A DNA stretch of 64,000 bases from Gemmatimonadaceae bacterium (GTDB lineage Bacteria > Gemmatimonadota > Gemmatimonadetes > Gemmatimonadales > Gemmatimonadaceae). The notes below the pieces were generated by a model that ran no database searches, was not told the DNA's origin, and was given only the letters and a program-made list of their open reading frames with translations. Shown here piece after piece: positions 45,980 to 47,299 of this stretch. A program made the translations under genes and the position numbers. Position 1 is the stretch's first letter. Every line of letters begins with the position of its first letter. The stretch is from the NCBI GenBank assembly GCA_014379205.1, contig JACMME010000157.1, forward strand, positions 1-64,000, in the 5' to 3' direction.

Positions 45980-47059
45980 CTAATCCCCGAAGCTGATTCC
46001 CAGGGACCGCGCCGTCTGGACGACGTCATGCATGGGATCGACACGCTTGGGTTCCCGGAGAACGTCGATTATCGGAACCGTCACGAGGTGCGGAGATTGA
46101 AGCGCGACCATATGACCCCACTTACCCTCTTCTACGGCGCGCACAGCCGCACCGCCGAATCGAGCCGCCAGCAGCCGGTCGTAGCCGGTCGGAACACCAC
46201 CCCGCTGAAGATGGCCGAGCACGAGCGAGCGGCACTCCTTGCCCGTTCGCGACTGTATCTCCCGTGCGAGACCATCAGCTATGCCTCCAACTCGCTTCGC
46301 CTGCCCTGGCAGCGACTCGCCGATCATGTGCACTTCCCCCCCATCAGGAAATGCTCCCTCGGCAACGACAACAATGGAAAAATGACGGCCGACCCTGTCG
46401 CGGGCCATGATCTTCTCGCACACCTTGTCGATGTGGAAGGGAATCTCCGGCATGAGGATTACATCGGCCGATCCAGCCACTCCCGAATGCAGCGCGATAA
46501 AACCGGAATTGCGTCCCATTACCTCGAGGACAAGAACCCGGTCGTGACTTTCCGCGGTGGTGTGGAGCTTGTCAATCGCCTCAATCGCCGTGGTTACCGC
46601 CGTATCGAACCCGAACGTCGTTATGGTGCCATTGACGTCGTTGTCGATCGTTTTTGGGACACCAATTATCTGCATACCCTTTTCGAACAACCGCTGGGCG
46701 ATCGCAAGGGAGCCGTCTCCACCAATCGTGATTATGGCACTGATGCCGCGCTCTCGGGCGTTGTCGATGACTTCATCCGAGCGGTCAACCTCGTCGACCG
46801 TTCCGTCTGTTCGGCGCCGGGGATAGCAGAACGGGTTCCCCCGATTGGTTGTCCGGAGAATCGTGCCTCCCTGATGGCCGATTCCGCGAACAGTCTCCTT
46901 CGTCATGGGGATGACTTCGTCCGCCCCCAACAAGCCGGCGAAGCCACGCTTGATTCCCAGGACCTCCCAGCCTCGGTTGATTGCCGAGAGGACGGCAGCA
47001 CGGATTACGGCATTCAATCCCGGGGCATCACCACCTCCGGTAGAGATTGCTATGCGCAT
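45980..47059 (-). CDS. pfkA: 6-Phosphofructokinase, mixed-signature (group III) type
   Basis: 359 residues. MRIAISTGGGDAPGLNAVIR opens the fold; IGGDGSLAIA has Gly at the position that is Gly in ATP enzymes and Asp in PPi enzymes, while GVPKTIDNDV has Lys at the second diagnostic position, as in PPi enzymes. The Gly/Lys mix is that of group III PFKs, many ATP-dependent. MGRNSGFIALHSG and the R-rich fructose-6-phosphate site follow. Its start is 12 bp after the stop of the selenoprotein gene, so both are probably on one message. Confidence 0.93.
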   Translation of the reverse strand: MRIAISTGGGDAPGLNAVIRAAVLSAINRGWEVLGIKRGFAGLLGADEVIPMTKETVRGIGHQGGTILRTTNRGNPFCYPRRRTDGTVDEVDRSDEVIDNARERGISAIITIGGDGSLAIAQRLFEKGMQIIGVPKTIDNDVNGTITTFGFDTAVTTAIEAIDKLHTTAESHDRVLVLEVMGRNSGFIALHSGVAGSADVILMPEIPFHIDKVCEKIMARDRVGRHFSIVVVAEGAFPDGGEVHMIGESLPGQAKRVGGIADGLAREIQSRTGKECRSLVLGHLQRGGVPTGYDRLLAARFGGAAVRAVEEGKWGHMVALQSPHLVTVPIIDVLREPKRVDPMHDVVQTARSLGISFGD

Positions 47060-47071
47060 GCGATTGAGATG

Positions 47072-47299
47072 TTACCTGGATTTTTCGAACAGTCGGAGAA
47101 TCTCACCGGGCTTGGCATGTCGTCCAATCTTCGATTTCTGAAAAATTGGCTTGCCGTCGATTGAGACCTCAAAGCGGCCACCGCTCGAGGGAATAAGCTC
47201 GACTTGAGCATCAGGATACCGATCTCCAAGCTCGGCCGCCAAACTGGTGGCCCGCGGTTCGTAGTCTCAAACGGTACAATACTCGATTGTAACTTTCAT
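47072..47299 (-). CDS. SelW-like (Rdx family) selenoprotein with in-frame UGA
   Basis: A 75-residue thioredoxin-like redox protein read on the minus strand from the ATG at 47299 to TAA at 47072-47074, with one TGA at codon 11 (47267-47269). The product starts MKVTIEYCTV-U-DYEPRA, where U is selenocysteine in the Cys-x-x-Sec motif typical of SelT/W/H proteins; Cys is residue 8. SSGGRFEVSIDGKPIFQKSK and a basic tail complete the family fold. The frame after the TGA is fully conserved in character, which argues against decay. A small hairpin follows the UGA. Upstream of pfkA on the same strand. Confidence 0.85.
47234..47252 (-). promoter_or_regulatory. Candidate bacterial SECIS hairpin
   Basis: In the message, 14 nt after the UGA, GGCCACC can pair with GGCGGCC (six pairs, one A-C mismatch) around an AGUUU loop that includes a G. 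Bacterial SECIS elements lie directly downstream of the UGA with the apical loop about 16-37 nt away; here the loop starts 21 nt after. Position and size fit, but the stem is short. Confidence 0.5.

Follow-up and report, generated by a model that had tools for sequence, protein, structure and literature searches.

A SelW-like selenoprotein gene with a SECIS-type hairpin upstream of a phosphofructokinase gene in a Gemmatimonadaceae bacterium

In this work, we asked whether positions 47072 to 47299 of a Gemmatimonadaceae contig, lying within a window of 64,000 nucleotides (the whole stretch of DNA that was analysed), encode a selenoprotein whose reading frame is obscured by a UGA codon. An earlier note, which gave no strand, had claimed that codon 11 of a gene at this place is TGA, and this codon is indeed found on the minus strand, at 47269–47267. 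On the same strand the gene starts with an ATG at 47299–47297 and stops with a TAA at 47074–47072; when TGA is read as selenocysteine (U), the product has 75 residues, followed by the TAA, with the sequence MKVTIEYCTVUDYEPRATSLAAELGDRYPDAQVELIPSSGGRFEVSIDGKPIFQKSKIGRHAKPGEILRLFEKSR. The plus-strand reading of this interval gave no meaningful protein and was rejected, and no clear Shine–Dalgarno sequence was seen when the sequence before the ATG was inspected. With the standard code, the only open reading frame visible at the locus has 56 codons for amino acids and starts from a TTG located 3′ of the UGA, so that ordinary gene finders would truncate the gene, much as had been predicted when it was said that they would split or drop it. 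With a probability of about 97 %, we regard the segment from 47299 to 47072 as a genuine, functional-looking SelW-like selenoprotein gene with a SECIS element, in a Gemmatimonadaceae lineage that decodes selenocysteine.

The assignment of the product to the SelW-like (Rdx) family is based on the translation with TGA read as U. This protein matches the Pfam Rdx profile with 71.9 bits over residues 2–71 (E=5.2e-20, cut-off 22.6), and it also exceeds the cut-offs of two NCBIfam SelT/SelW/SelH models, SelTWH_Campy (95.9 bits, cut-off 88, 1e-27) and CXXU_selWTH (60.4 bits, cut-off 34.2). These matches are far beyond chance. The redox motif is located near the N terminus as C8-T-V-U11, and CxxU or CxxC is retained across all aligned relatives, which bears out the proposal that the frame reads as one conserved Rdx protein with a Cys-x-x-Sec motif. 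SelW-like proteins are among the most common and widespread selenoproteins of bacteria (PMC2398784, PMC1794560). Compared with these bacterial SelW-like selenoproteins (PF10262; TIGR02174, NF041051), the protein described here has the same size, Rdx profile and N-terminal C-x-x-U, and its gene has the same coding-region SECIS hairpin after the Sec codon; it differs only in its lineage, the Gemmatimonadota, and in its usual phosphofructokinase gene context. By sequence it belongs to the same Rdx family as Atu0228 (PDB 2fa8, E=1.2e-8), and it can also be placed with selenoprotein W (PDB 2npb), in this case with only E=0.086; such solved structures are of proteins from other organisms, whose sequences resemble the one studied here only distantly.

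An in-frame TGA could in principle have arisen by nonsense mutation of an Rdx gene of the Cys type, which would leave a pseudogene and a 56-residue remnant starting from the downstream TTG, and the fact that standard gene finding shows this short open reading frame only would be in agreement with such a history. However, this TGA is a fixed feature of dozens of relatives, including some with no more than approximately 40–60 % identity. Among 51 relatives in other genomes, identified by a contig scan, the aligned codon is TGA in 48 and TGC in three, the latter all planctomycete, and the UGA is conserved across several phyla within this set; the SelW-like homologues thus show an alternation of Sec and Cys at this position. 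When 40 genomes were searched, each of 27 Rdx matches (our own gene and 26 kindred ones) contained exactly one in-frame TGA. A comparison with 17 close relatives gave differences at codon positions 1/2/3 of 0.23/0.12/0.62 before the UGA and of 0.31/0.15/0.51 after it. Since the differences concentrate at third codon positions on both sides, the part downstream of the UGA appears to be translated, and constraint at the protein level acts before as well as after this codon. Close homologues with an ordinary stop and no conservation downstream had been named beforehand as the observation that would speak against a selenoprotein; what was found instead is that the UGA and the protein encoded after it are both kept. 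The pseudogene reading is refuted by the fixed UGA together with the conservation that continues beyond it, and we consider it exceedingly unlikely. In one relative (L114, G030:C1:1104084), the SelW-like gene keeps CxxU and is without the middle of the protein, possibly through internal deletion or decay. A plasmid collection yielded only distant relatives, with less than 60 % identity.

It had further been claimed that a stem-loop is located just after the UGA, and a hairpin of the bacterial SECIS type could be placed at 47252–47234 on the minus strand. It has seven stacked positions, one of which is an A.C mismatch, and a 5-nt loop (AGUUU, 47245–47241); the distance from the UGA is approximately 14 nt to the start of the stem and 21 nt to the loop. 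According to published criteria, a bacterial SECIS element has a stem of at least 4 bp with an energy below −7.5 kcal/mol, and a loop of 3–9 nt, located 16–37 nt from the UGA, in which a G at the first or second position is followed by a U (PMC13188914). The hairpin described here agrees with this consensus in loop, stem, spacing and energy, the last being −9.9 to −11.5 kcal/mol, and it differs from it by the single A.C mismatch in its stem and by the lack of an Rfam match. The Rfam scan of the locus gave no match, and neither did a search of the genome with Rfam SECIS_1, which carries no information since its controls were equally silent.

Because a 66-nt stretch folded as a single sequence was no more stable than shuffled sequences (z=−0.22), the hairpin was tested comparatively, with 40 Gemmatimonadota sequences aligned without gaps. 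Of the alignment cells at the seven stem positions, 93.6 % are paired, and the energy is −7.5 kcal/mol or lower in all 40 sequences. Cells in which both sides of a pair have changed number 18, compared with 4.1±1.6 in shuffles, and the stem covariation score of 0.259, reached by none of 500 shuffles, stands against 0.115 for shuffled and at most 0.104 for slid alignments. The outer pair, 30–48, is formed by the third positions of an Arg codon and an Ala codon, and it shows compensatory changes (GC in 24 sequences, AU in eight, CG in five, UG in one, with two exceptions). The codon in the loop is always RGT or RGG (AGT 22, GGT 15, AGG 2, GGG 1), such that the encoded residue varies between Ser, Gly and Arg while the base pattern of the loop, RGUYU, stays the same; AGT is the commonest loop codon although, of all Ser codons, the neighbouring genes use it least. 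Cys-type relatives are without the RGU loop. When codons were replaced at random by synonymous ones, the hairpin of our own gene stood out with P=0.00135, and over the 40 sequences the mean z was −2.7, with all 40 values below −1. The support for this predicted SECIS element is therefore of a comparative kind, and together these results uphold the stem-loop that had been proposed.

A functional selenoprotein gene implies a selenocysteine machinery, and the earlier note had accordingly expected selA, selB, selC and selD in the organism and regarded the absence of such a machinery as fatal to its claim. The closest relatives bearing a name belong to the Gemmatimonadaceae. The source bin (4.11 Mb, 339 contigs, 91.8 % complete) contains tRNA-Sec (selC; 73.5 bits, anticodon TCA), SelB (343.5 bits, cut-off 242) and SelD, so that three of the four components were recovered and the machinery is clearly not lacking. 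SelD is present as two contig pieces with an identical overlap of 141 bases (L066:1501-1974 and L085:1-678, on contigs C233 and C31); the joined protein itself contains selenocysteine, encoded by an in-frame TGA within a CAGU motif, and the tRNA-Sec gene follows directly after it. These findings also bear on the idea of an altered genetic code, in which UGA would generally be read as another amino acid and no selenocysteine would be involved. An in-frame TGA within a conserved gene would fit this idea, yet two neighbouring conserved genes, cofC-like and DEAD-box helicase, stop at TGA, which contradicts a general reassignment; in addition, the genome has SelB and a tRNA-Sec whose anticodon is TCA, and the residue that replaces U in relatives is Cys and not Trp or Gly. 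We attach practically no probability to this explanation, the least of all those considered.

A search for SelA in the bin was negative. It could be argued from this that selW is intact in a lineage that has lost selA and no longer decodes UGA as selenocysteine. However, in six relatives that were inspected selA is located between valS and purH; purH had no match in our bin and for valS only a paralogue with 32 % identity was matched. As both flanking genes are missing as well and valS is essential, it is very probably the bin, and not the organism, that lacks this segment. The tRNA-Sec, SelB and SelD are intact, as are both UGA-containing genes. The absence of selA thus very likely reflects a gap in assembly or binning, the organism presumably does carry selA, and its loss from the lineage is very improbable. 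The missing valS, purH and selA would amount to one segment of approximately 8–10 kb or more in this bin (G000). Within the 40 genomes searched, which comprise our own and its relatives, SelA exceeds the cut-off in 28. Some Sec machinery is present in 31 of these genomes, 27 of which have a SelW-like gene, whereas the gene is found in none of the nine genomes that lack such machinery (Fisher P=2.6e-6, a value that ignores the relatedness of the genomes). G001, G015, G031 and G035 have Sec machinery and no detectable SelW-like gene, and two of these are bins that are less than 90 % complete.

According to the selenoprotein model that we favour, the ribosome would initiate at the ATG at 47299 and meet the UGA at codon 11, where SelB, carrying Sec-tRNA(Sec), would bind the hairpin that begins approximately 14 nt downstream and deliver selenocysteine. 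Translation would then run on to the TAA, and the resulting Rdx protein of 75 residues would be thioredoxin-like, with C-x-x-U as its redox centre. We infer from the features described above that selenocysteine is inserted at codon 11 and that the protein is redox active.

The gene that follows, at 45980–47059 on the minus strand, encodes a 6-phosphofructokinase of the PFK_mixed type. It scores above the cut-off of the NCBIfam model PRK03202 and reaches 430.2 bits with TIGR02483 (cut-off 430.55), and the mixed signature is seen as GGDG with PKTIDND. This gene starts 12 nt after the selW stop, on the same strand, and the two genes likely share an operon. Of 41 further Gemmatimonadota loci, 32 likewise have selW directly upstream of a phosphofructokinase gene on the same strand, which points to an operon, and the arrangement was seen in none of the checked loci from other phyla. 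We came across no mention of this link when searching the literature, and it is apparently undescribed. It might be imagined that selW and pfkA form a selenium sensor for glycolysis, in which scarcity of Sec-tRNA would cause termination at codon 11 and, through polarity or lost translational coupling, less phosphofructokinase. We think this very unlikely. Any functional link is speculative, be it selenium-dependent expression of phosphofructokinase through termination at codon 11 or, in a weaker form of the idea, a role of SelW in protecting the enzyme or in regulating its redox state.

The SelW-like gene described here is an ordinary addition, from an uncultured bacterial lineage, to a known and widespread family, and its own interest is modest since few bacterial selenoproteins are as widespread as the SelW-like ones. 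In the open literature, of which our coverage is incomplete, we found no papers devoted to the selenoproteins of Gemmatimonadota. Our findings confirm that many Gemmatimonadota decode selenocysteine, and also that standard annotation is apt to truncate the SelW-like proteins of this phylum. Finally, the link with phosphofructokinase provides a cheap lead on the role of bacterial SelW.
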